DNA of 38,924 bases, from NCBI GenBank assembly GCA_944387625.1, contig CALXFQ010000012.1, positions 1-38,924 on the forward strand, read 5' to 3'. Shown here piece after piece: positions 4,455 through 34,956 of the stretch; position 1 is the first letter of the stretch; the number at the start of each line of letters is the position of its first letter. Made by a program: the position numbers and the translations under genes. Source of the stretch: an uncultured Oscillospiraceae bacterium (GTDB taxonomy: Bacteria; Bacillota; Clostridia; Oscillospirales; Oscillospiraceae). The notes beneath the pieces were generated by a model. It ran no database searches. It worked only from the letters and a program-made list of their open reading frames with translations, and was not told where the DNA came from.

Positions 4455-6383
4455 TCAGACCTCCTGTTGGGAATGAGGGAAGAGCCGGGCATCGGTGTGG
4501 GGCAGGAAGCAGGCGGCTACGAAGGCGTCCATATACCCGGGGTAGGTGGACAGCTCCAGATAGGTCATGTTGGCGGCCACTTCCGCCACCTTTTCGGCGG
4601 CCTGCTGGCTCATGACCATGGCGTAGGCCCCGGCCAGGGAGGAGTTGCCGATGTAGTGGAACTTTTCCAGGTCCAGGTCCGGGAACATCCCGATGTTCAC
4701 CGCGTTCTTCATATTGATCCCGGATCCGATGCCGCCGGCCACGTACACCTGGTCGATCATCTCCACGGTCATGTCCACACTGCCCAGCAGTGTGTCGATG
4801 GCGGAAAAGATCGCGCCTTTGGCCCGGATGAAGTTGTCGATGTCCACCTCGTTGATGGAGATCTCCCGGCCGGTGTCCGTTTCCTGCTGGAATGCCACCA
4901 CATACCGGCCCATGCCGTAGTGGTCCCGAAGCACCCGGCGGCCCTCCCGGACGAAAAGGCCCTTGGCGTTGACGATCCCGCATCGGAACAGCTCGGATAT
5001 CAGATCGATGATGCCGGATCCGCAGATGCCCACCGGCCGCTGGTCCGGATCGCCCACCACCGTGATCGAAGGCTCCATGGTGTCTTTATCGATGGTACAC
5101 GCCTCGATGGCCCCGTCGGTGGCCCGCATACCGCAGGAGATGTCACCGCCTTCAAAGGCCGGACCGGCGGAACAGGCACAGCTCATCAGGAAATCCCGGT
5201 TGCCGAAGACCAGCTCGCCGTTGGTGCCCAGGTCGATGAACAGGCTCATCTCGTCCCTGTCCCAGATCCCGGAAGCCAGGGTCCCGGCGGTGATGTCCCC
5301 GCCTACATACGAGCCGATGTTGGGGGCGATCGCCACCTGGGCCAGCGGGTTGGCCGGGAGCTTCAGGTCCCCGGCCAGCAGACCGTCCCAGCCGAAGAAG
5401 CTGGGGATGTAGGGATCCATCCGGATCGGGTCCGCGTCCACCCCTACGAACAGGTGGTTCATAGTGGTGTTGGCCCCCACCGCCAGGTGGAGGATGCTCC
5501 CTGCGGCGATCCCCGCCTCCCGGCACAGCCGGGCCATGATCGGGGCCAGGGTCTCTTTGATCAGGGCGTCCTGGAGCTTCTTCTTCCCGCCGGGACGGCT
5601 CTGCTGGATGATCCGGTTGATCACGTCGGCGCCGTAGCGGATCTGGCCGTTGCCGGAGGACCCCTTAGCCAGCAAAGCGCCGCTTTCCAGGTCCGCCAGG
5701 ACCATGGTCACGGTGGTGGTGCCGATGTCGATGGCACAGCCCGCGATGGTCCTATCCTCCGCCGGGCAGACCTCCATACAGTGGAAGGTGTCCCCCTCCC
5801 GCCGGCCTTTGGCCCGGATATGGAACCCGTTCTCCCGGAGGACGGCGGCCAGCTTCTTCATCACATGGAAGGGGACCCGGACCCGCTCCGCCCCGGTGTG
5901 CTGGCGGACGGCCCGGATCAGCCGCTCCACGTCGGGCATGGTGTCCTCGGCGGAGGGAGCGTCCATGGTCAGCTCCAGGCTCTGGTAGGGGTTCTCGAAA
6001 TGGATCCCGCTGTGCCGGAGCATCTCCTGGCAGGTCTGGAAGATGGCGACCTCGTCGGGAGAGCTAAGGTCCGCGGTCTTCATCCGGGACTGGTAGGCCG
6101 AGGCGATGTCCGGCACGAACACGGTCACGTCCCCTGCCACCTTGCAGTTACAGCTCAGCCGCCAGCCGGCCTCGAACTCCTCCTGGGGCAGATGATGGTT
6201 GGGGATCGTGTCCAGCGCCCCTTCCATCAGCTTCACCCGGCACTTGCCGCAGGAGCCGTTGCCGGAGCAGGGGGCGTCGATCGCCACGTTGGCCCGCCGG
6301 GCCAGCTCCAGCAGATTGTCGCCTGCGTTGCACTCCACCGTTACCGGCTCGCCGCCTTCGATCTGAAATGTCACCTTGCTCAT
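4455..6383 (-). CDS. acsV: Corrinoid activation/regeneration protein AcsV (RACo)
   Basis: A 642-residue reductive activator of the corrinoid iron-sulfur protein. The N-terminal 2Fe-2S ferredoxin domain (1-95) carries C39, C45, C48 and C78. A linker (about 100-210) leads to an ASKHA-type ATPase domain that begins at CAIDIGTTTVTMVLADLESG and includes SLFIDLGTNGELVFGN and VYVAGGIGSGI. The family uses ATP to drive an electron to Co(II)-corrinoid that has fallen out of the catalytic cycle, restoring Co(I). Length is close to that of known RACo proteins. ATG 6383 has GAAAGGAACG upstream. It lies downstream of acsB but is separated by 530 bases of repeats, and a possible promoter sits just before it. 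Confidence 0.93.
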   Translation of the reverse strand: MSKVTFQIEGGEPVTVECNAGDNLLELARRANVAIDAPCSGNGSCGKCRVKLMEGALDTIPNHHLPQEEFEAGWRLSCNCKVAGDVTVFVPDIASAYQSRMKTADLSSPDEVAIFQTCQEMLRHSGIHFENPYQSLELTMDAPSAEDTMPDVERLIRAVRQHTGAERVRVPFHVMKKLAAVLRENGFHIRAKGRREGDTFHCMEVCPAEDRTIAGCAIDIGTTTVTMVLADLESGALLAKGSSGNGQIRYGADVINRIIQQSRPGGKKKLQDALIKETLAPIMARLCREAGIAAGSILHLAVGANTTMNHLFVGVDADPIRMDPYIPSFFGWDGLLAGDLKLPANPLAQVAIAPNIGSYVGGDITAGTLASGIWDRDEMSLFIDLGTNGELVFGNRDFLMSCACSAGPAFEGGDISCGMRATDGAIEACTIDKDTMEPSITVVGDPDQRPVGICGSGIIDLISELFRCGIVNAKGLFVREGRRVLRDHYGMGRYVVAFQQETDTGREISINEVDIDNFIRAKGAIFSAIDTLLGSVDMTVEMIDQVYVAGGIGSGINMKNAVNIGMFPDLDLEKFHYIGNSSLAGAYAMVMSQQAAEKVAEVAANMTYLELSTYPGYMDAFVAACFLPHTDARLFPHSQQEV

Positions 6384-6913: not shown

Positions 6914-9040
6914 TCACATCAGCGGCTCCATAGCCAGCACCGGGTGGCCCTTTTCGGTGAGCCAGTTCAGCAGTTCCTCGCAGTCGGTGGTGATGGTTTC
7001 ATCGGCCACATAGTCGGTGAAGTTCTCGATGCCGTAAAGCGCCTGGGCGGTGGCGTTCAGGCGCTCGCCCACATCGTCTTTCAGCTCCTTGGGCATCCAC
7101 ACGATCCGCTCGATGCCGCCCTCGGCGGCGATGAACTTCTTAGAGGAGATGAAGTGACGGCCGTGGCCCATGTAGCCGGGGGTCTGGACACCGCCGCCGG
7201 TACAGCTTGCCAGCTCGCCGAAGGTCATGCCCGCCGGGGTCATGCCCTTGTACTCCCGGTTCACCACGATGAAGCCGTTGCTCATCGGCTCGATGCCGCA
7301 GATGCACTCGAAACAGCCGCAGGAGGTCATGGGGTCTTCCAGGATGGAGTACAGGGTCACCTTCTCCACCGCCCCGTGGGTGGCCTCCTTGACCATCTTA
7401 TCCACGCTCTCGAACCGGCCGGTCCGCTCATCGATACAGCCCTCCTTAAAGATCGGCTGGCAGGGACCGTTGGGGTCCAGCTCATTGGTGGCCTTGGCAT
7501 CCAGCCAGCTCACCGCGCCGCACAGGCCCAGCCGCTCAGGAGTGACCACACAGCAGTGGGCCGGGGCGAAGGACTGACAGAGGATGCAGGTATAGTAGCG
7601 ATCTACGGACTCGTCGGTCATGGAGGCCAGCCGGTCGTCCCGCTGGGTGTAGCGGGGCATCGCCATCTGGTCCCGGAAGGTCTCCGCCTGGGCCGGGTCG
7701 GTGATGATCGTCACCTGGCACTTATCCACCACGGCGTCGAATTCGTTCTTCACCATGACATAGAGGACCTCGGCAAAGTCCCGGATCCGCAGACCGGCGT
7801 CAAAGGCGGCGTTGGACACCCGCACCCGGACCTGGTTGCGCTGGCCGGTGTGCATCACGCCTTCCATGTAGTTGAACCAGGCGTGGAACTTCCGCTCGAT
7901 CACCGACTCGAAGTCCACCTGCATCTTCTTACCGGCCACCTCCACGAAGGTCACCAGGGCCAGGTCCTTGGCCTGGTCCAGGTCCGGCCCGATGATGGTG
8001 ATCTTGTGGTCCTCCACTTCGCTCAGTTCCCGCATGACCACCAGCTCGGCGGTGGGGTTCTTGGAGGACCAGCACTCGTTGTGCATATCCGCCTTGCGGA
8101 TGATCTCGCCCTCGAAGGCGGCGGCGAAGGCCACCGGGATCGGCAGTTCCGTGACCTTGATCTTGATCTCCCGCAGTTCCAGGGACTTGGCAACGGTCTG
8201 GCTGTGGTCGCAGACGGACTCCAAAGCGCCGGGGACCTGCTCGCTTCCCAGGTCGATGTCCACCACCACCGGGAAGCCCAGGGCGATGGCGCCGGCACCG
8301 GCGGAGACCACCACCGCGTCGATCGGGCCGAAGGTGTTGACGAAGGCAGGGACCCGCTTCTTGGTGTATTCCAGCAGTCCTGCCAGGTCGCCGGGCTGGA
8401 CGTTGCCGAAGATCAGGGCGGCCCGGATCGCCACGGTGACCACATGGATCACCGAAGTCACATCATGGCCCAGAGGCACCACCCGGTATTCCAGGCCCGC
8501 CTTCACGCCGCCTTCCAAACACTGCTCGATCACGTCCCCTACCAGGAAGGTCAGCAGGCCCTTGGACTGGTAATCCTTGACCACCTTCACCACGTCCGCC
8601 GGGTCTTCCGCCTTGCCCAGGACCACCGCCACGCCGGGGATGTCCCCGGTGACCAGCGGCACGCCCAGGGACCGGATCACCGGGTCCGGCACGAAGCCGA
8701 TGCCGCTGTCCTGGGCATAGGGGTCGCCCCCCGCCGCCCATTTCAGGCCCTCGATGATCTCCGCCCCAACGGCGGTGGCCAGGCCCGCGTTCAGCGCCTG
8801 GCCCAGGTCCTCCTGGCCGGTGATCAGGCTCTTGAGCACCTCCACGCAGGCAGGCAGGTCCCCCAGGGTCTTGACCTTCACGCCGGTGGCGGCGTAGATG
8901 GTGGGGAAATAGTACGCCGTGTCTGGGAAGGCCACAGGATGGTCCGGGCCGTACTTGGCGATGGCATCCTTCACGGCCCCTTCGGTGAGGCCGGCGACGG
9001 CATTGCTGCCGCCATAGATCAGATCGGTCAAAACGCTCAT
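6914..9040 (-). CDS. acsB: Acetyl-CoA synthase subunit (CO dehydrogenase/ACS beta)
   Basis: 708 residues; collinear with the Moorella acetyl-CoA synthase (about 729) as I remember it. It condenses the corrinoid methyl group, CO and CoA to acetyl-CoA at the nickel A-cluster. The cluster ligands are visible: C485 and C488 (TCILCQSFAPAH), C497 and C507 (CVVTPERLGLC), and the CGC motif at 574-576 (MTSCGCFE). Other family text: YGPDHPVAFPDTAYYFPTI, AFEGEIIRKADMH, GRKFHAW-type region and GGGVQTPGYMGHGR. The N-terminus is about 20 residues shorter than the Moorella protein. The start has TTTAGGAGGAT. It follows a DUF3786 gene by 20 bases in the cooC-acsD-acsCE operon. No CO dehydrogenase subunit is in the window, so CO must come from a partner encoded elsewhere. 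Confidence 0.96.
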   Translation of the reverse strand: MSVLTDLIYGGSNAVAGLTEGAVKDAIAKYGPDHPVAFPDTAYYFPTIYAATGVKVKTLGDLPACVEVLKSLITGQEDLGQALNAGLATAVGAEIIEGLKWAAGGDPYAQDSGIGFVPDPVIRSLGVPLVTGDIPGVAVVLGKAEDPADVVKVVKDYQSKGLLTFLVGDVIEQCLEGGVKAGLEYRVVPLGHDVTSVIHVVTVAIRAALIFGNVQPGDLAGLLEYTKKRVPAFVNTFGPIDAVVVSAGAGAIALGFPVVVDIDLGSEQVPGALESVCDHSQTVAKSLELREIKIKVTELPIPVAFAAAFEGEIIRKADMHNECWSSKNPTAELVVMRELSEVEDHKITIIGPDLDQAKDLALVTFVEVAGKKMQVDFESVIERKFHAWFNYMEGVMHTGQRNQVRVRVSNAAFDAGLRIRDFAEVLYVMVKNEFDAVVDKCQVTIITDPAQAETFRDQMAMPRYTQRDDRLASMTDESVDRYYTCILCQSFAPAHCCVVTPERLGLCGAVSWLDAKATNELDPNGPCQPIFKEGCIDERTGRFESVDKMVKEATHGAVEKVTLYSILEDPMTSCGCFECICGIEPMSNGFIVVNREYKGMTPAGMTFGELASCTGGGVQTPGYMGHGRHFISSKKFIAAEGGIERIVWMPKELKDDVGERLNATAQALYGIENFTDYVADETITTDCEELLNWLTEKGHPVLAMEPLM

Positions 9041-9060: not shown

Positions 9061-9675
9061 TTAAAGATCCGGACCCCGGATCAGTTGCAGCAAATACTTT
9101 TGCAGGCAGGAGGCGATGTAGTACACCGTCTCATAGCGCAGGAAGGCGAGGGTGTTCTTATCCCACAGCAGCGTCAGCGTCGGGGGGAACTCGTCGTCTT
9201 CGTGGTAAAATTTCAGACACATGGAAAGGCCGGGGAAGATGGGGATCTTTGCCCCCAGGTCCCCCAGGGGGATCGGGCGGCCTCCCAGGGCCTCCACCGC
9301 TTTGAAAAATCCGTCGGCCCGGTCCTCGATCGCCTGGGCCAGGGCCGTGCCGCCGATCGTCAGGCCGCCGCCGCCCACATACACCCCAGGCAGGCTGGTC
9401 ACCGGGCAGTATTCTCCGGCGGCCCGGGCATCCGGGGGGCTGTCGCAAAGCCAGTCGTAGATGGACAGGGCCTCGGCGTAGTCCGCCGGCCGGTCCGCCG
9501 GGGGAAGGAAGACCTCCCCGGTGGTCAGCGACACCGCGGCCGGCCGGCCTAAAAAGGTGGTGGTCAGCCGGTCCCCTGCCACCGTCACCCCGGCCCGGCT
9601 GGTCCAACAGCTTTCAGGATAGCCCAGGAACCGCCGCCGGGCGGCTTGCAGGGCAAGTGCGTAGTTATCCATCAT
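9061..9675 (-). CDS. DUF3786 domain protein within the acs operon
   Basis: 204 residues, no signal peptide. GGRPIPLGDLGAKIPIFPGL and FYHEDDEFPPTLTLLWDKN correspond to the C-terminal signature seen in the other DUF3786 protein at 3831-4451, and a putative substrate or metal pocket is suggested by the conserved HEDDEFPP. It lies between acsCE and acsB on the same strand. Function unknown; context suggests help with assembly, corrinoid or A-cluster maturation. The start is odd: ATG ATG at 9675/9672 lies right after a 13-bp hairpin (9686-9715), and no Shine-Dalgarno sequence sits at normal spacing, only a GGGAGGGAG inside the hairpin arm. Confidence 0.7.
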   Translation of the reverse strand: MMDNYALALQAARRRFLGYPESCWTSRAGVTVAGDRLTTTFLGRPAAVSLTTGEVFLPPADRPADYAEALSIYDWLCDSPPDARAAGEYCPVTSLPGVYVGGGGLTIGGTALAQAIEDRADGFFKAVEALGGRPIPLGDLGAKIPIFPGLSMCLKFYHEDDEFPPTLTLLWDKNTLAFLRYETVYYIASCLQKYLLQLIRGPDL

Positions 9676-9741: not shown

Positions 9742-12012
9742 TTACAGCTCCAGGTAGGAGTCGGAGTACAGGGTATGGTTCTTGAAGATGTCGCAGGACT
9801 TGATGGTCTCCATCAGCCGCAGGTCGTTGGGGTTGACGATGGCGGAAGTCAGGCCCTGCATCATGGCCATAGCCACCAGGGCGGAGTCCATGATCGGACG
9901 GACGTGCTTGGGCGCGCCGTTGGAGTTATTGGACAGACCGCCGGTGGACTTCAGGCCCTCGTTGGAGAACATCTTGATGGCCTCCAGGACCTCCATCTGC
10001 TTGTCCTGCATGCCCTTGACCACCAGGAACAGCGGGTCGAACCACAGGTCGTCAGAGCTCATGCCCAGGCTCAGGCCGCGCTCGAGCATATTGTGGCAGT
10101 GCTTCATCCGCTCCTCGTTGTCCTTGGCGATGCCGTCGGCAGAGCACAGGGCGATACAGATGGCGTCGTTGGCGGCGGCCAGATCGATGTTGGAGATCCG
10201 GGAGCCGGCGTCGGCGGAGTTGACGATGGGCTTGCCGTTGGTACGGTCATAGACCTTGATACCGGCCTCGATGGCCTTCTTGTTGGCGGTATCCAGGGCC
10301 AGCGGCACGTTGTTGAAGTTCTCCTGCAGGAGCTTGACTGCCCACATCATCCGCTCGGGACCGTCCTTCTCGGCAGGTCCGATGTTCACGTCCAGATAGG
10401 TGGCGCCGGCGGCGATCTGCTGGGCGGCACGCTCCAGGATGGGCTTGGGATCGCGCTCGTCCATGGCCTTCCGGATCACCGGGGCGATGCAGTGGATCCG
10501 CTCGCCGATGGTGACGAAGGTCTTGGACTCGGGGTTGTGGCCCTTGTACTTCACGCCCATATCCACCACTTCGATCTTGGGCACCCGGGTCTCCAGCAAT
10601 TCCTCGAAGGACAGCTCCTTGACCACCTCCACGGTGGCGGCCTTGGCGGCGTTCTCCGCGGCGGCGGCCTTGGCGGCGGCCTCATACTCCTTGTCCTTCA
10701 TGTACTTGGGCAGCTGAGCGGCCTCCAGGGGACCGACCACCACGTTCCAGCCGGGCAGCTTCTCCTGGATCTCGCCCTTCATCACGGCCACCTTGCCGGG
10801 GATGATCAGGGTGCGGTTCTTGATCTTGTTCTCGATGTCCAGCTCCTCGAAGGTCTTCTTCACGGTGGAGGAGGAGAACTTACCAGCGGCCCAGGCGGTC
10901 AGCACGGACATGCCGGAAGCGTCGGTGATGATCAGGTTCACCGGCTGGTTGGACCGCTCCAGCTCGCCGGAGACCAGGAAGTAGGTCAGGGCGAAGTCCA
11001 CGGTCAGGGCGCAGGGGCTGTTCTCGTCGGCGCCGTTCAGGGGGTAGATCTTGGCCTCCACCTTCATGGGCTTCTGAGGATCGGTGAAGATGTTCTGCCG
11101 CAGGCCGTACAGGGGCAGGGCCTGGGCGTAGTCCATCTGCTCCATGACGATGATGGAGCCGTACTTCTCGGTGAACATGGAAGCGTAGGCGGTCTGCAGG
11201 TGCGCGTCGCCCTTGGCCAGCTTGCCCACGTTGACGATGGAGGGATAGCCGAAGGAACGGTCGCCGTCCTTGATGGCGGTGCGGCGGACCAGCACGGCGT
11301 TGGCCAGGGTCTGCTTGGCGGTCTTGCCGGTGACGTCCAGCACCAGGTTCTTGTTGCCCTTGCCTTCCAGCTTCTTGACCGTGTCATACAGGTCGGAGAT
11401 GTTCTCGGCGTACACGCCCAGCACCACACCGGCGGCGGTAGCCACCTCGTTCATGGCCTCCCAGTTGTCGGGGGTGGCGCCGTCCAGGATCACGTCCTTG
11501 CCGGCCACGGCCAGCGCGGCCTTGGCGCACTCCACGTCCCAGCAGGCCAGGACCAGGCTGCGGCCGGTGGCGGCGGCCTTCTGGACCAGGGCGGCGTAGG
11601 CGGCAGGATCGGTGCCGTTGTTGGCAACGTAGACGAACTCCACATACATCCGCTCGCCGATCCGCTCGTAGTCCACCTTCTGCAGGTCAGCCAGCTTCTT
11701 GTCCACTTCCTCGTCGCTCATGCAGGTGCACACGGACACGGCGAACAGGTTCTTGTTCACCAGGGTCTTCTCATGGCGGAACAGCACGGTCTCGCCGCCC
11801 AGCTTGTGCTCACCTACGGTGATGGTCTTCATGGGAGGCGCGGTCTGCTCGTTGAGCATGGCCTTCGCCTCGTCGGAGAAATAGGGGCACTTGTCGATGG
11901 ACACCGCGCCCTGGGCCACCTTCATGCAGAACGCCATGCAGGTGGGGCTGCCGCACTCCTTGCAGTTCTTCTTAGGCGACAGCTTAAAAATGTCAAGACC
12001 TTTCAAAGCCAT
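9742..12012 (-). CDS. acsC-acsE: Fused corrinoid iron-sulfur protein large subunit and methyl-THF methyltransferase (AcsC-AcsE)
   Basis: 756 residues, far longer than AcsC alone (about 446). Residues 1-60 hold the 4Fe-4S domain with C17, C20, C25 and C42. About 90-315 form the TIM barrel and about 320-445 the B12-binding domain (ITDASGMSVLTAWAAGKF). An Ala/Lys/Glu-rich linker (445-495) leads to a second complete domain (500-756) that matches methyltetrahydrofolate:corrinoid methyltransferase: TIGERIHCIAPVIRKAMDER, ATYLDVNIGPAEKD (pterin site), LALDTANKKAIEAGIKV, GGLSNNSNGAPKHVRP. The donor enzyme and the methyl carrier are thus one chain, with acsD next door as the small subunit. ATG 12012 has AGAAGGAGGAT. 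The frame runs unbroken through the linker, and codon use is uniform. Confidence 0.93.
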   Translation of the reverse strand: MALKGLDIFKLSPKKNCKECGSPTCMAFCMKVAQGAVSIDKCPYFSDEAKAMLNEQTAPPMKTITVGEHKLGGETVLFRHEKTLVNKNLFAVSVCTCMSDEEVDKKLADLQKVDYERIGERMYVEFVYVANNGTDPAAYAALVQKAAATGRSLVLACWDVECAKAALAVAGKDVILDGATPDNWEAMNEVATAAGVVLGVYAENISDLYDTVKKLEGKGNKNLVLDVTGKTAKQTLANAVLVRRTAIKDGDRSFGYPSIVNVGKLAKGDAHLQTAYASMFTEKYGSIIVMEQMDYAQALPLYGLRQNIFTDPQKPMKVEAKIYPLNGADENSPCALTVDFALTYFLVSGELERSNQPVNLIITDASGMSVLTAWAAGKFSSSTVKKTFEELDIENKIKNRTLIIPGKVAVMKGEIQEKLPGWNVVVGPLEAAQLPKYMKDKEYEAAAKAAAAENAAKAATVEVVKELSFEELLETRVPKIEVVDMGVKYKGHNPESKTFVTIGERIHCIAPVIRKAMDERDPKPILERAAQQIAAGATYLDVNIGPAEKDGPERMMWAVKLLQENFNNVPLALDTANKKAIEAGIKVYDRTNGKPIVNSADAGSRISNIDLAAANDAICIALCSADGIAKDNEERMKHCHNMLERGLSLGMSSDDLWFDPLFLVVKGMQDKQMEVLEAIKMFSNEGLKSTGGLSNNSNGAPKHVRPIMDSALVAMAMMQGLTSAIVNPNDLRLMETIKSCDIFKNHTLYSDSYLEL

Positions 12013-12029: not shown

Positions 12030-12971
12030 TTACACCAGCTCAGAGATGAACTTTTTGATCGTGGCGATGGCAGCGGGATGGCGCATGATCACCGCGTCGG
12101 CGCCGCCGGTCAGGTTGGCGGCAGCGGTGGAAACTTCCATGCTGATGGCACGCTGCTCCCGGCTGCCCCAGGCGGGCTCATCTTCCTCGCTGGCGGAGGA
12201 CTCCTTCACGCCCCAGGTGTCGGTGGACACAGGCGCGATGATGGGCATCTGCAGGTCCGCGTCGGACTGGGCCAGGGCGGCCAGGCGGATACGGTCCAGG
12301 GTGGAGGCCACATACTCAAAGCCATAGCCCACGGCGGCGGTGCCGATGTTCATGACGATGCTCTCCGGCGCGATGGACAGGCCCTTGAGCATGATGTTCA
12401 GCTGCTTGGCCAGGTTGATGTCGTCGGCGGTCTCAGCGCCCACCTTCTGGCCATAGGCCAGGGCCACGGAAGCGCCTACGGTCTTGTAGTCCTCGCTGCG
12501 GGCGGACAGCACGGCGATGTTCTTGCCCTGGAGGGCCTCAGCGATCTTGCTGAACAGCTCTCCGTCCTTCTCCAGGTTCTTGCAGCCCATGATCACGATG
12601 GGCAGCGACACGGCCTCGGCCACCGCCTTGGCATCGGCCACGCAGTCGGCAACGGACCGGTCGGCGCCGTTGGGATCGGCGGACTCGAAGTGCAGGCAGA
12701 TAAAGTCTGCCCCTTCCATGGTCTCGGCACGCTTGGCGTAGTCGGCCATGGTGGCGCAGCCCTCGTAGAAGGCGCGCAGCTCAGGCGCGTCCCACTCGCC
12801 GGCCAGATCGGAGATCTCCACGCCGATCTTAGGCGCGTGCTCGATGGGCGCGTCGAAGGTGTAGAAGGGCAGCACGTTCTGGCCGCCGATGACGATGGCC
12901 TTGTCACCGGTGCCCAGGGTCACAGCGTTGATCTTGCCGCTGTAGGCCGCCGTCTTGGGAACGAAAGACAT
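12030..12971 (-). CDS. acsD: Corrinoid iron-sulfur protein small subunit
   Basis: 313 residues, a TIM-barrel protein that pairs with AcsC to form the corrinoid iron-sulfur protein carrying the methyl group to acetyl-CoA synthase. Recognisable text: AVTLGTGDKAIVIGGQNVLP, KIGVEISDLAGEWDAPELRA, GADFICLHFESADPNG, AVGYGFEYVASTLDRIRLAA, MPIIAPVSTDTWGVKESSAS. I chose ATG 12971 (MSFVPKTAAY) rather than the first in-frame ATG because AAGGGGGA lies at the right distance and family members start here. It is 17 bases ahead of acsCE and 81 bases after cooC, clearly co-transcribed. Confidence 0.95.
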   Translation of the reverse strand: MSFVPKTAAYSGKINAVTLGTGDKAIVIGGQNVLPFYTFDAPIEHAPKIGVEISDLAGEWDAPELRAFYEGCATMADYAKRAETMEGADFICLHFESADPNGADRSVADCVADAKAVAEAVSLPIVIMGCKNLEKDGELFSKIAEALQGKNIAVLSARSEDYKTVGASVALAYGQKVGAETADDINLAKQLNIMLKGLSIAPESIVMNIGTAAVGYGFEYVASTLDRIRLAALAQSDADLQMPIIAPVSTDTWGVKESSASEEDEPAWGSREQRAISMEVSTAAANLTGGADAVIMRHPAAIATIKKFISELV

Positions 12972-13052
12972 TTTGATTTCCCCCTTAAAAATGTTGGTGA
13001 TGGATATAGGACAGATCCCCGGCGATATGCCGGACATCATGTTCTACGGTTT

Positions 13053-13823
13053 TTACAGGCCCAGGGCCTCCATGATCGGCTTCAGCGCCGCCTTCATGGG
13101 ATCGGACTCCGGCAGTCTGGCCGAAGGCTCGCCCTGGCAGTCACAGCGGTAGACCTGCTCATCCTGGGGCAGGACCCCCAGCAGCTTCAGGCCGTGCTTG
13201 TCGATCTCCTCCCGGATGCCGGGGTCCAATCCCCCGCCAGGCGCCCGGTTCACGATCAGGCCCATCTGACCGGGGCGAAGATCCATCTCGTCGATCATCT
13301 CCGCCAGCCGGGCCACCGCCTGGATGCCTCGCCGGGAGCAATCGGAGATCAGGAGCATGGTGTCCACATGGGGCAAGGTGCCCCGGGCCACATGCTCCAG
13401 GCCGGCCTCATTGTCCATGACGATATAGGAATAATTCCGGGCGTACTTGTCCACCTGGGATTTGAGCACCCCATTGACATAACAGTAGCAGCCCTTGCCC
13501 TGAGTGCGGCCCATGACCAGCATATCGAAGTCATCTTCCTCGATCAGGGCGGAATTGAATTTGAACTCCGCGTAGTCGGCCTTGGTCATCCCCTTGGGGA
13601 TGGTGCCTTTCAGCTCGGCCTGGGCCATCTCCTCCCGGATCTGCCCCAGAGAGGTCTCCACCTCCACCCCCAGCACTTCGTTGAGGTTGGAATTGGCATC
13701 GGCATCCACCACCAGCACCGGGCCGTTGCCCTTTTTGCACAGGTAGTCGATGATCATGCCGCAGGTGGTGGTCTTCCCCACGCCGCCCTTGCCGGCCACT
13801 GCGATGGTATGCGGTGTCGCCAT
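13053..13823 (-). CDS. cooC: CooC/AcsF-type nickel-inserting ATPase
   Basis: 256 residues of the MinD/CooC ATPase family. A deviant Walker A (AGKGGVGKTTT, 10-20) and the Cys-x-Cys pair C112/C114 in GKGCYCYVNG, which binds metal in CooC dimers, are both present. The DADANSNLNEVLGVE and MDNEAGLEHVARGTL stretches are also typical. The protein helps load nickel into CO dehydrogenase or acetyl-CoA synthase at the cost of ATP. ATG 13823 has AAAGGAG. It is the first gene of the acs operon, directly behind a strong promoter, so maturation is co-expressed with the synthase. Confidence 0.92.
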   Translation of the reverse strand: MATPHTIAVAGKGGVGKTTTCGMIIDYLCKKGNGPVLVVDADANSNLNEVLGVEVETSLGQIREEMAQAELKGTIPKGMTKADYAEFKFNSALIEEDDFDMLVMGRTQGKGCYCYVNGVLKSQVDKYARNYSYIVMDNEAGLEHVARGTLPHVDTMLLISDCSRRGIQAVARLAEMIDEMDLRPGQMGLIVNRAPGGGLDPGIREEIDKHGLKLLGVLPQDEQVYRCDCQGEPSARLPESDPMKAALKPIMEALGL

Positions 13824-13882
13824 AAAATGAAACTCCTTTCGGCCGTAAAATGGGCGCAATACACCCATTCCGATACAACGAT

Positions 13883-31644: not shown

Positions 31645-32466
31645 TCACACCCGGTACCCATCGTCACAATGGGGGACCTGCTGGTCCTTCGGGGGAAGCT
31701 GCATATAGTCACCGTAAAGATTGGTCAGATAGATGTGGTAGTTGGCGTAGCCCCAGGCCTGGATATCCTGGAAGGGCAGCCGGGCCTGGGGAAGCATATC
31801 TTCCTTCCGCCAGCGCTCCTTCCGGCCGTACATCCCGCTGATCGCGCCCACATACGCGGCGGTGTCATAATCCACCCGGCTGCACACCTTGTCCAGCCAC
31901 CGGGCCAGGCGGTAAGGCCCGATCCACCGCAGGATCGGGCGGTACAGGTCCTTGACCGCGGCGGCCGCGCCGCCCCGGCGGCTGGTGCCTGGCTTTTCCA
32001 CGCTGGTGAGCAGGAATCGGCGCAGCTGGCGGACCTGGAAGCACTGGCGGCGGAAGGCCCGGTCGCCGGAGGGCAGACCGTCCACCGGGAAGATGTCCAT
32101 GCCGATGTAGGGACAGTCCCACTCCTCCGCCATGTCCACCACCCGCATCACGTCTTTACGGATGTACCGGGCGAAGTGCCGGGGCAGGGTCCGGTCCCGG
32201 TCCGAGATCACCTCCCGGCCTTCCGGCAGAGGGAGCTTTCCCTCCGCTTTCAGCGCCAGCAGCCGCTCATAGTCCGGCCGGGGCATACAGATATCGATGT
32301 CGTTGTCCCAGGGGATGAAGCCGCCGTGGCGGACCGCGCCCAGCAGGGACCCGCCGGCCAGGTCATAGCGCAGGCCGCATTTTTCACACAGCGCTTCAAG
32401 CTCCTTCAGCAGCTCCAGATAGACCTGCTGCATCTGCTCCAAGGTCAACAGCGGACGCTCTTCCAT
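31645..32466 (-). CDS. LicD family phosphotransferase (1)
   Basis: 273 residues. LAGGSLLGAVRHGGFIPWDN and DIDICMPRPDYERLLALK form the LicD nucleotidyltransferase-like core with its Asp pair, and the C-terminus has the usual LYGDYMQLPPKDQQ. LicD proteins transfer phosphocholine or related phospho-alcohols from CDP-donors to sugars of teichoic acids or capsules. It is one of three in this operon, different enough in sequence to act on different acceptors or donors. AAAGGAG precedes ATG 32466. Confidence 0.9.
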   Translation of the reverse strand: MEERPLLTLEQMQQVYLELLKELEALCEKCGLRYDLAGGSLLGAVRHGGFIPWDNDIDICMPRPDYERLLALKAEGKLPLPEGREVISDRDRTLPRHFARYIRKDVMRVVDMAEEWDCPYIGMDIFPVDGLPSGDRAFRRQCFQVRQLRRFLLTSVEKPGTSRRGGAAAAVKDLYRPILRWIGPYRLARWLDKVCSRVDYDTAAYVGAISGMYGRKERWRKEDMLPQARLPFQDIQAWGYANYHIYLTNLYGDYMQLPPKDQQVPHCDDGYRV

Positions 32467-32481
32467 GACCGGCTCCTTTCC

Positions 32482-33828
32482 TCAGCCCAGCTCCACCAGG
32501 GTACACTCGCCCTTGTGGAACCGCTCCAGCAGCGCCGTGGCCCGGAGCACGTCCTGCCGGGTGTGCTGGATGGTGTAGCGCTCCGGGTTGTTGATCCGAT
32601 AGAGGAAGTTGTAGATCATGTATCGGAACCCGTCGCCTTCGTAGCTGTAATAGTATTTCTTCACGTTCCGCAGGTCCTCGGTGCGGACCTCGAAGTAGTC
32701 CGTCCGCCACCAGGGGGCGGGGACGTAGAGATAGCCTTTGGTGCCGGTGATCACCAGCTCCCCTTCCACCTTCATGCCCTTGCCCACCCGGATCGAGGCG
32801 GTGCCGTTGGGATAGTGGAGGAAGCCCCGGGTAAAGTAGCTGAACCCCTCCTTCTGGAAGCTGGTCAGGTCACAGCCGGTACACTCGCTCTCATAGATCT
32901 TGATGATCGGCATCAAGGCGGTGGAGCCCCAGTCGTAGAGGCTGCCCAGGTATTTGTTTTTGGCGATCTGCTCCATCTGCTCCGGCACCTGGCTGCAGGA
33001 CACGTCGATGTCCTTCACCGCGCCGATCACGCCACTTTTCACCAGCAGGAGCATATGCTCGAAGGCCGGGAAGTACAGGGTCTTCATGGCCTCGAAAAGG
33101 ATCAGCCCCTTTTCGTCCGCCCGGCGGTAGCACTCCTGGGCCATCTCCAAGGTCAGGAACATGGGCGGCGTGCAGATCACATGGCACCCGGCGTCCAGGG
33201 CCGACAGGATGTGCTCATAATGCTTGTCCGGATCGGAGTTGATCAGCACCGCGCCGCAGTCCGCCAGCAGCGCCTCCACAGACTCATACCGCTCCAGGGT
33301 GCTCTTGCCCCGGCAGAACTTGGTCATCTTCTGGGGATCGGGATCGTACACCGCGGTGATCTCCATGCCGGACACGGTCTTGCCCGCCACGAAAAACCGC
33401 TCCGCCACATGGTCCACGCCGATGATCCCCAGCCGCAGCGTGGGCTTGGCGTTGGCCCGCAGGGAGGTGGAGCTGATGCCCCTGGTCCGGGGCAGGTACA
33501 CCACCTGGCAGTATTCGCTGAGGTAGTCGAATTTTCCCACCCAGTCCGAGCCTATGGTGAAGATGTCCACCCCGTACTTCTGGATGTCGGAGATCTTCTG
33601 GCCCTCGTACTCCTCCACGATGATCTGGTCGGCGATGCCGGTCTGGCGGACGTTCTCGATCCGCTCCGCCAGGGACTGGCTCACGTTGAGCTTGCCCCGC
33701 TCCTTGTCGAAGCCGTCGGCGGTGACGCCGACGATCAGATAATCGCCCAGGGCCTTGGCCCGCTTCAGCAATGCCACATGGCCATGGTGGAGCAGGTCGT
33801 AGGTACCATACGTGATGACTTTTTTCAT
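32482..33828 (-). CDS. TagD-like cytidylyltransferase fused to a degenerate Gfo/Idh/MocA domain
   Basis: 448 residues, two domains. Residues 1-127 are a glycerol-3-phosphate cytidylyltransferase-type domain with TYGTYDLLHHGHVALL (HxGH at 14-17) and the RTRGISSTSLR signature near 115-124. Residues 131-448 look like a Gfo/Idh/MocA oxidoreductase (LRLGIIGVDHVAERF, AGCHVICTPPMFLTLEMAQE). In the second domain the usual EKP motif with its catalytic Lys is TPP (220-222), and the nucleotide-binding GxG reads GVD, so reductase activity is doubtful. The first domain probably makes a CDP-alcohol for the LicD proteins. AGAGGAAAAGAG precedes ATG 33828. Confidence 0.85.
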   Translation of the reverse strand: MKKVITYGTYDLLHHGHVALLKRAKALGDYLIVGVTADGFDKERGKLNVSQSLAERIENVRQTGIADQIIVEEYEGQKISDIQKYGVDIFTIGSDWVGKFDYLSEYCQVVYLPRTRGISSTSLRANAKPTLRLGIIGVDHVAERFFVAGKTVSGMEITAVYDPDPQKMTKFCRGKSTLERYESVEALLADCGAVLINSDPDKHYEHILSALDAGCHVICTPPMFLTLEMAQECYRRADEKGLILFEAMKTLYFPAFEHMLLLVKSGVIGAVKDIDVSCSQVPEQMEQIAKNKYLGSLYDWGSTALMPIIKIYESECTGCDLTSFQKEGFSYFTRGFLHYPNGTASIRVGKGMKVEGELVITGTKGYLYVPAPWWRTDYFEVRTEDLRNVKKYYYSYEGDGFRYMIYNFLYRINNPERYTIQHTRQDVLRATALLERFHKGECTLVELG

Positions 33829-33879
33829 TCTCTTTTCCTCTTCTGGCAGCCGCGCTGCCCCGGTCAGTTGATCTGTGCC

Positions 33880-34956
33880 TTACTTCAGGATGCCTCGCCT
33901 CACCAGGTCACGGAGGGCGTCCAGCAGCACCTGGTAGTCCTGCTGGGTCAGTGCGCCGATATGGCCCACACGGAAGATCTTGTGCTGATATTCGCCGCCG
34001 TTGGGGCAGACCCAAATGCCGTACTGGTCTTTCAGGGTGGTGAACACGTCATAGGCGGAACAATTTCTGGTCATCAGCGGCGTGACCGCGTTGGACATGG
34101 CCTCCGAACAGATGTCCAGGGGGAGATCGTGGATCACGCTTCGGAACCAGGCGGCCAGCGCCCCGATCTTGGCGGTCTCCGCCTCCGCGCCCCCGTCCCG
34201 GTCGATCTGGGCCAGGCGCTCATGGATCTGCAGCAGGGTCCCCACCGCCGGGGTGAAGGGGGTCTGGCCCCGCTCCCCGTTTTTCAGGGCGCTCTTCAGA
34301 TCCAGGTACATACACCGGGCCTGGCTCTTCTCCACCCGGGCCAACGCCTTGGGGGAGAGCACGATCACAGACACGCCGGGGGGACACGCCAGGGCCTTCT
34401 GGGACCCGGTGATCATCACATCCACCCCCCAGTCGGCCATTCGGAACTCGTCTGCCAGGAAGGAGCTGATCGCGTCCACCAGCAAAAACAGGCCGTTCCG
34501 GCGGCAGAACTCCGAGATGAGCGCCGGATCGTAACGGACGCCGGTGGAAGTTTCGTGGATGTTCACCACGAAAGCGGTAAAGCCCCGGCCCTCGTAAGGC
34601 GCCAGGTGCTCCGCCCGCAGGGCCTGACCGGTGGAGAGCCGGATCTGCTCAAAGGGGATCTGGTGCAGGGCCAGCAGCTCATGGAACCGCTGGCCGAAGC
34701 TGCCGCCGTTGATCAGCAGTACCTTGTCCCGGTGGGTCAGGGCGTTCATCACCGCCGCTTCCATGGAGGCGGTGCCGGAGCCGGTGATAAAGACGCACCG
34801 GCTGCCTGCCGGGGCCTTGGCAAAGCGGCACATCCGCTCCTCGTTTTCCAGCATCACCTGGGAAAACTCCGGGGTCCGAAAATAGGGGACCTGCTGGGCA
34901 CCGATCGCCCGGACCTCCTCTCCGGCCTGGACCGGCCCCACGGTAAAGTTCAGCAT
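33880..34956 (-). CDS. Class V aminotransferase, 2-aminoethylphosphonate-pyruvate transaminase-like
   Basis: 358 residues, PLP fold type I, class V. NFTVGPVQ at the start, GSGTASMEAAVMNAL, VNIHETSTGVRYDP, VDAISSF (D161) and MITGSQKALACPPG (Schiff-base K187) fit PhnW/AEPT and alanine-glyoxylate aminotransferases. Next to LicD and cytidylyltransferases, conversion between phosphonoacetaldehyde and 2-aminoethylphosphonate, or another amino-alcohol precursor, is the attractive role. No pepM or ppd gene (phosphonate synthesis) is in the window, so this is inference. It starts two bases after the LicD (2) stop. Confidence 0.82.
   Translation of the reverse strand: MLNFTVGPVQAGEEVRAIGAQQVPYFRTPEFSQVMLENEERMCRFAKAPAGSRCVFITGSGTASMEAAVMNALTHRDKVLLINGGSFGQRFHELLALHQIPFEQIRLSTGQALRAEHLAPYEGRGFTAFVVNIHETSTGVRYDPALISEFCRRNGLFLLVDAISSFLADEFRMADWGVDVMITGSQKALACPPGVSVIVLSPKALARVEKSQARCMYLDLKSALKNGERGQTPFTPAVGTLLQIHERLAQIDRDGGAEAETAKIGALAAWFRSVIHDLPLDICSEAMSNAVTPLMTRNCSAYDVFTTLKDQYGIWVCPNGGEYQHKIFRVGHIGALTQQDYQVLLDALRDLVRRGILK

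Follow-up and report, generated by a model that had tools for sequence, protein, structure and literature searches.

In Moorella thermoacetica, the corrinoid iron-sulfur protein (CFeSP; AcsC and AcsD) works with a methyltransferase (MeTr, AcsE; PDB 4djd), and AcsC and AcsE are separate chains. AcsC is also a separate chain, of 450 residues, in the CFeSP of a CODH/ACS complex (PDB 9fzy). MetH carries a CH3-THF barrel and a B12 domain in one flexible chain and transfers the methyl group within that chain; its pterin domain precedes the B12 domain, and homocysteine and reactivation domains are present in addition. The HgcAB-like fusion (NF043039) is also a natural fusion with a CFeSP-type corrinoid domain, its partner being a ferredoxin domain and not a methyltransferase.

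Here we describe a locus of an uncultured Oscillospiraceae bacterium at which AcsC and AcsE are joined. It lies within a stretch of 38,924 nucleotides (assembly GCA_944387625.1, contig CALXFQ010000012.1), hereafter called the window. The protein, designated AcsCE, has both components of the Moorella system, with the same folds, pterin-site residues and Fe-S cysteines, but forms a single chain with a 58-residue linker. In contrast to MetH, the pterin domain follows the B12 domain, which is of the CFeSP type, and AcsD and the activator AcsV are proteins of their own. A sequence-only reading of this DNA knew of no earlier description of the architecture, and in the open-access literature, which leaves out most subscription papers, we found neither a described AcsC-AcsE fusion nor any sign that it is a common known form. 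AcsCE is a real and clade-wide form of two well-known enzymes, and one that apparently has not been described before.

One reading frame for AcsC and AcsE

The acsCE gene (9742..12012, minus strand) is a frame of 756 amino acids with an ATG start and no internal stops, and an AAGGAGG ribosome-binding site lies 5' of the start. The calculated mass of the chain is 82.3 kDa, close to the 80 kDa anticipated earlier. Pfam matches to FeS (residues 13-44), CdhD (70-436) and Pterin_bind (520-727) all fall on this one chain, as do the NCBIfam matches to AcsC (NF003195, 516 bits, cut-off 306) and AcsE (NF040758, 463 bits, cut-off 370). The uninterrupted frame and the domain order given in the sequence-only reading were thus borne out by the open reading frame, Pfam and NCBIfam; with the phmmer matches below, it is near certain that 9742-12012 is a real single reading frame fusing a complete AcsC to a complete AcsE.

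The AcsC part comprises residues 1-440 (10693..12012, minus strand), with an N-terminal 4Fe-4S motif, a TIM barrel and a C-terminal B12 domain. The four cluster cysteines that had been proposed are indeed present (C17, C20, C25 and C42) and are invariant in all AcsC rows aligned. The closest solved relative is the 9fzy AcsC (52% identity; phmmer 1.2e-143 to 9fzy_F). The AcsE part, a MeTHF:corrinoid methyltransferase barrel, corresponds to residues 499-756 (9745..10518, minus strand) and so departs from the usual stand-alone chain of about 262 residues. Its pterin site, which the same reading had recognized, was located by residue mapping with a protein matching Moorella MeTr as reference: D574, N598, D659 and N695 are equivalent to D75, N96, D160 and N199, which we take, as established knowledge, to bind pterin or the methyl donor. 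Across 17 fused sequences neither these four positions nor the four Fe-S cysteines vary. The AcsE part belongs to another subfamily (NF040758) than Moorella MeTr, with which it shares 35% identity (2.7e-38 to 1f6y). Against the Moorella-type model NF005719 it reached 178 bits, below the cut-off of 259; two unfused Oscillospiraceae AcsE proteins also stayed below it (187 and 197 bits). The full-length MetH model TIGR02082 gave 90 bits against a cut-off of 1011 and covered the pterin part only, and an assignment of AcsCE as MetH was rejected. Residues 315-446 matched NF043039 weakly, far under its cut-off.

An AlphaFold model of AcsCE from a 40-row alignment, used in place of an earlier, poor run on 14 sequences (pLDDT 68), had a mean pLDDT of 87.9 and a pTM of 0.47. 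Foldseek aligned its AcsC part to 9fzy_F (TMt 0.85) and 4djd_C (TMt 0.80) and its AcsE part to 1f6y_A (TMt 0.90). Between the two parts, a helix at residues 442-459 is followed by a low-confidence break at 461-463. The model suggests two well-folded parts without fixed relative placement, as would be expected of a tether; the low pTM may instead reflect the shallow alignment and not true flexibility.

The source assembly is fragmented (125 contigs), and a chimeric contig or a sequencing frameshift could in principle have created the fusion. However, within the genus the full fusion is present, at 80-91% identity, in most relatives with a contig spanning the locus, the remaining copies being broken off at contig ends. 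Altogether 100 fused frames were read, 88 of them full length, from GTDB species genomes and 60 fetched loci, some species being in both so that not all frames are independent. The 88 full-length frames, which stem from projects and hosts independent of one another, have the identical architecture and show no stop or frameshift. One fused frame belongs to Pseudoflavonifractor sp. MSJ-30 (L047), whose RefSeq record carries no MAG label. The occurrence in genus relatives and in 100 frames excludes chance or assembly error, and we give an assembly or binning artefact practically no credence.

Distribution and origin of the fusion

In a sample of 301 genomes of the family, 86 were AcsC-positive, and 29 of these, in 13 genera, were fused (called from the open frame or from the locus as read; count tallied from the table). 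Outside the family, no AcsC frame of fusion length was found, a few truncated copies aside, in 20 other AcsC genomes of the class sample or in 117 of the phylum sample, nor was one found in relatives of the Moorella-type genome G614. A fusion widespread in Bacillota was rejected on these grounds. The fusion is a clade-wide trait, extending beyond a single genome and confined to one Oscillospiraceae clade.

In unfused Oscillospiraceae, acsE mostly lies directly downstream of acsC. In Moorella-type genomes the two genes are kilobases apart; at L149, which matches the M. thermoacetica proteins, the distance is about 4 kb. The side-by-side arrangement in unfused relatives indicates that adjacency preceded fusion. 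On the tree, the fused state needs two changes. Enforcing a single fused clade gave a slightly better fit than the free quick tree and was not rejected (AU p 0.52). In the free tree, an unfused acsC/acsE pair (L127, genome G129) groups with or beside fused genera that have an Ala/Pro-rich linker, and it is possibly a fission product or possibly the nearest unfused sister. From these sequence comparisons, the simplest reading would be one fusion event, after acsC and acsE had become neighbours; two fusions, or one fission, are possible instead.

At two further loci, L129 (G156) and L145 (G847, contig C6), a single stop was called by the frame search within the AcsC match region (TAG and TAA, respectively). 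Both loci nonetheless read as intact AcsC frames of 448-460 amino acids, and these stops probably sit right at the gene end.

The linker and possible sources of free AcsE

The linker has 58 residues (441-498; 10519..10692, minus strand). The sequence-only reading had described an Ala/Lys-rich linker of about 50 residues; the composition held, being Ala/Lys/Glu-rich, and the length did not. The linker is two-part: residues 441-475 are variable and Ala/Lys/Glu-rich, and the pre-barrel segment (approximately 476-498), ending ...VDMGVKYKGHNPESKT, is more uniform. In fused chains generally, the usual AcsC end is followed by a stretch rich in Ala/Lys/Glu or in Ala/Pro and then by the pre-barrel segment (...V.YK....SK-FV.IGER), which is absent from the starts of unfused AcsE. 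Pairwise dN/dS from 46 close sequences was 0.20 for AcsC, 0.26 for the Ala-rich linker, 0.29 for the pre-barrel segment and 0.12 for AcsE, the pairs being non-independent and the values hence descriptive. Values of 0.26-0.29 imply that the linker is translated and under constraint.

The fusion could nevertheless be a neutral operon accident, in which two ordinary proteins dock as usual and the tether gives only a 1:1 stoichiometry or simpler expression. The prior adjacency of acsC and acsE in unfused relatives is in keeping with this, and so is the drift of linker sequence and composition, Ala/Lys-rich in the genus of the window and Ala/Pro-rich in genera g53 and g109. However, the fusion has been retained in the 13 genera of the family sample with no clear reversal, the linker is 41-65 residues long and always in frame in full-length fused copies and is under purifying selection, and the pre-barrel segment has no counterpart at unfused AcsE starts. 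We consider a neutral accident a serious but rather unlikely explanation.

Alternatively, the chain could be cleaved, or a start within the linker could yield free AcsE, so that the working enzymes would be separate after all. An in-frame ATG occurs within the linker in 78 of the 100 fused genes, and in 21 the AcsE part is preceded by a start that has a strong Shine-Dalgarno (SD) motif; from these 21% some free AcsE may be made. In comparison, such a start precedes 23 of 26 unfused acsE genes. The linker in the window has an ATG at residue 485, but it lacks a strong SD motif and is not kept in the Ala/Pro-linker clade. Since just 21 of the 100 fused genes have an SD start, an internal start was judged weak as a source of free AcsE, and we regard separate working enzymes as improbable.

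A second gene does not appear to supply AcsE either. The stand-alone acsE that had been named as a possible objection was looked for in the source genome (99.9% complete) and not found, the fused gene being the sole NF040758 match, and in 26 fused genomes checked the fused chain was the only match above the cut-off. Weaker AcsE matches in fused relatives (84-136 bits, far below 370), many of them in frames of MetH size (780-840 amino acids), were rejected. We are fairly confident that AcsCE acts as an intact tethered enzyme, a CFeSP large subunit that carries its own methyl-loading enzyme.

Gene neighbourhood, the acsE gap and a proposed role

The acsCE gene is part of an operon-like run on the minus strand, comprising an acsF/cooC-like gene, acsD, acsCE, a DUF3786 gene and acsB, with acsV further on. 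The first encodes a CooC/AcsF-like maturation ATPase (13053..13868), named by neighbourhood and by CbiA/AAA_31 matches; it matched no NCBIfam equivalog above cut-off. The CFeSP small subunit and partner of AcsC, AcsD, is encoded at 12030..13040 (NF040759, 471 bits, cut-off 430), acetyl-CoA synthase at 6914..9040 (acsB; NF040764, 994 bits) and the corrinoid reductive activator RACo at 4455..6383 (acsV; NF040756, 924 bits). The DUF3786 protein (9061..9675; PF12654, 111 bits) lies between acsCE and acsB, and a similar gene is found 3' of acsCE in two other genus members (L094, L100). The CODH gene cooS is on a separate contig (C90), adjoining cooC and a second acsB (L154, 102-2234) with 58% identity to that of the window. 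Six other family genomes likewise have a diverged second acsB, next to a cooC-like gene, at their cooS loci. The carbonyl branch lacks only the separate AcsE chain of other bacteria. For the methyl branch the check covered fhs only; formyl-THF synthetase is present, divided between two contig ends.

In a gut survey, Katayama et al. (2024; PMC11338639) did not detect acsE in 78% of the CODH/ACS genomes of Oscillospirales, 7 of 9 genera being concerned; the available part of that paper states no reason. Its main Oscillospirales genus is Faecousia, of which five records are fused here (L016, L030, L044, L059 and L063). Judged from the same part of the paper, the fusion probably accounts for the gap. 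The KO method of the survey, as described there, let one gene take several KOs, so the miss may stem from sequence divergence instead. Whether by fusion or by divergence, the acsE gene is present in the fused genomes. For 7 of 8 genera of Oscillospirales, the survey also placed acsCDE away from the cooS context, and the separate cooS-cooC-acsB locus fits this finding as reported there. Since acsE is among the genes required to call a genome a ruminant acetogen in another study (PMC12449052), automatic annotation could drop fused genomes. The fusion would fill an apparent hole in the Wood-Ljungdahl pathway of abundant gut bacteria.

The B12 domain is the moving part in CFeSP structures, and in AcsCE the AcsE part is attached to this C-terminal domain. 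By analogy with MetH, the most likely function of AcsCE would be a tethered, intramolecular methyl hand-over. We propose that the fusion arose in one Oscillospiraceae clade from neighbouring acsC and acsE and that a semi-flexible linker joins AcsE to AcsC. AcsC would pair with AcsD and the AcsE part would presumably still dimerize, giving about (AcsCE)2(AcsD)2, provided that the chain stays uncut. The B12 domain already has to move from a capped position to one facing MeTr and one facing ACS, and the tether would hold it near the pterin site, so that transfer from CH3-THF to Co(I) would become partly intramolecular. The methyl group would then pass to AcsB by docking, the tether leaving room for visits to AcsB. 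A kinetic benefit from a higher local concentration is plausible, as is a fixed AcsC:AcsE stoichiometry, and both fit the linker features. A more specific version, in which the intramolecular shuttle serves a second, clade-specific acetyl-CoA synthase (one acsB by acsCE, the 58%-identical one by cooS-cooC), is put forward very tentatively, and we doubt it. Since one bacterial family has these enzymes both fused and unfused, its genomes offer a natural tethering experiment.

Elsewhere in the window, a gene at 32482-33828 joins a cytidylyltransferase-like domain to a GFO/IDH/MocA oxidoreductase; its neighbours encode LicD and a class V aminotransferase (31645-32466 and 33880-34956). The genes at 31645-34956 look like a surface-glycan decoration cluster, of a choline- or aminoethylphosphonate-like kind.
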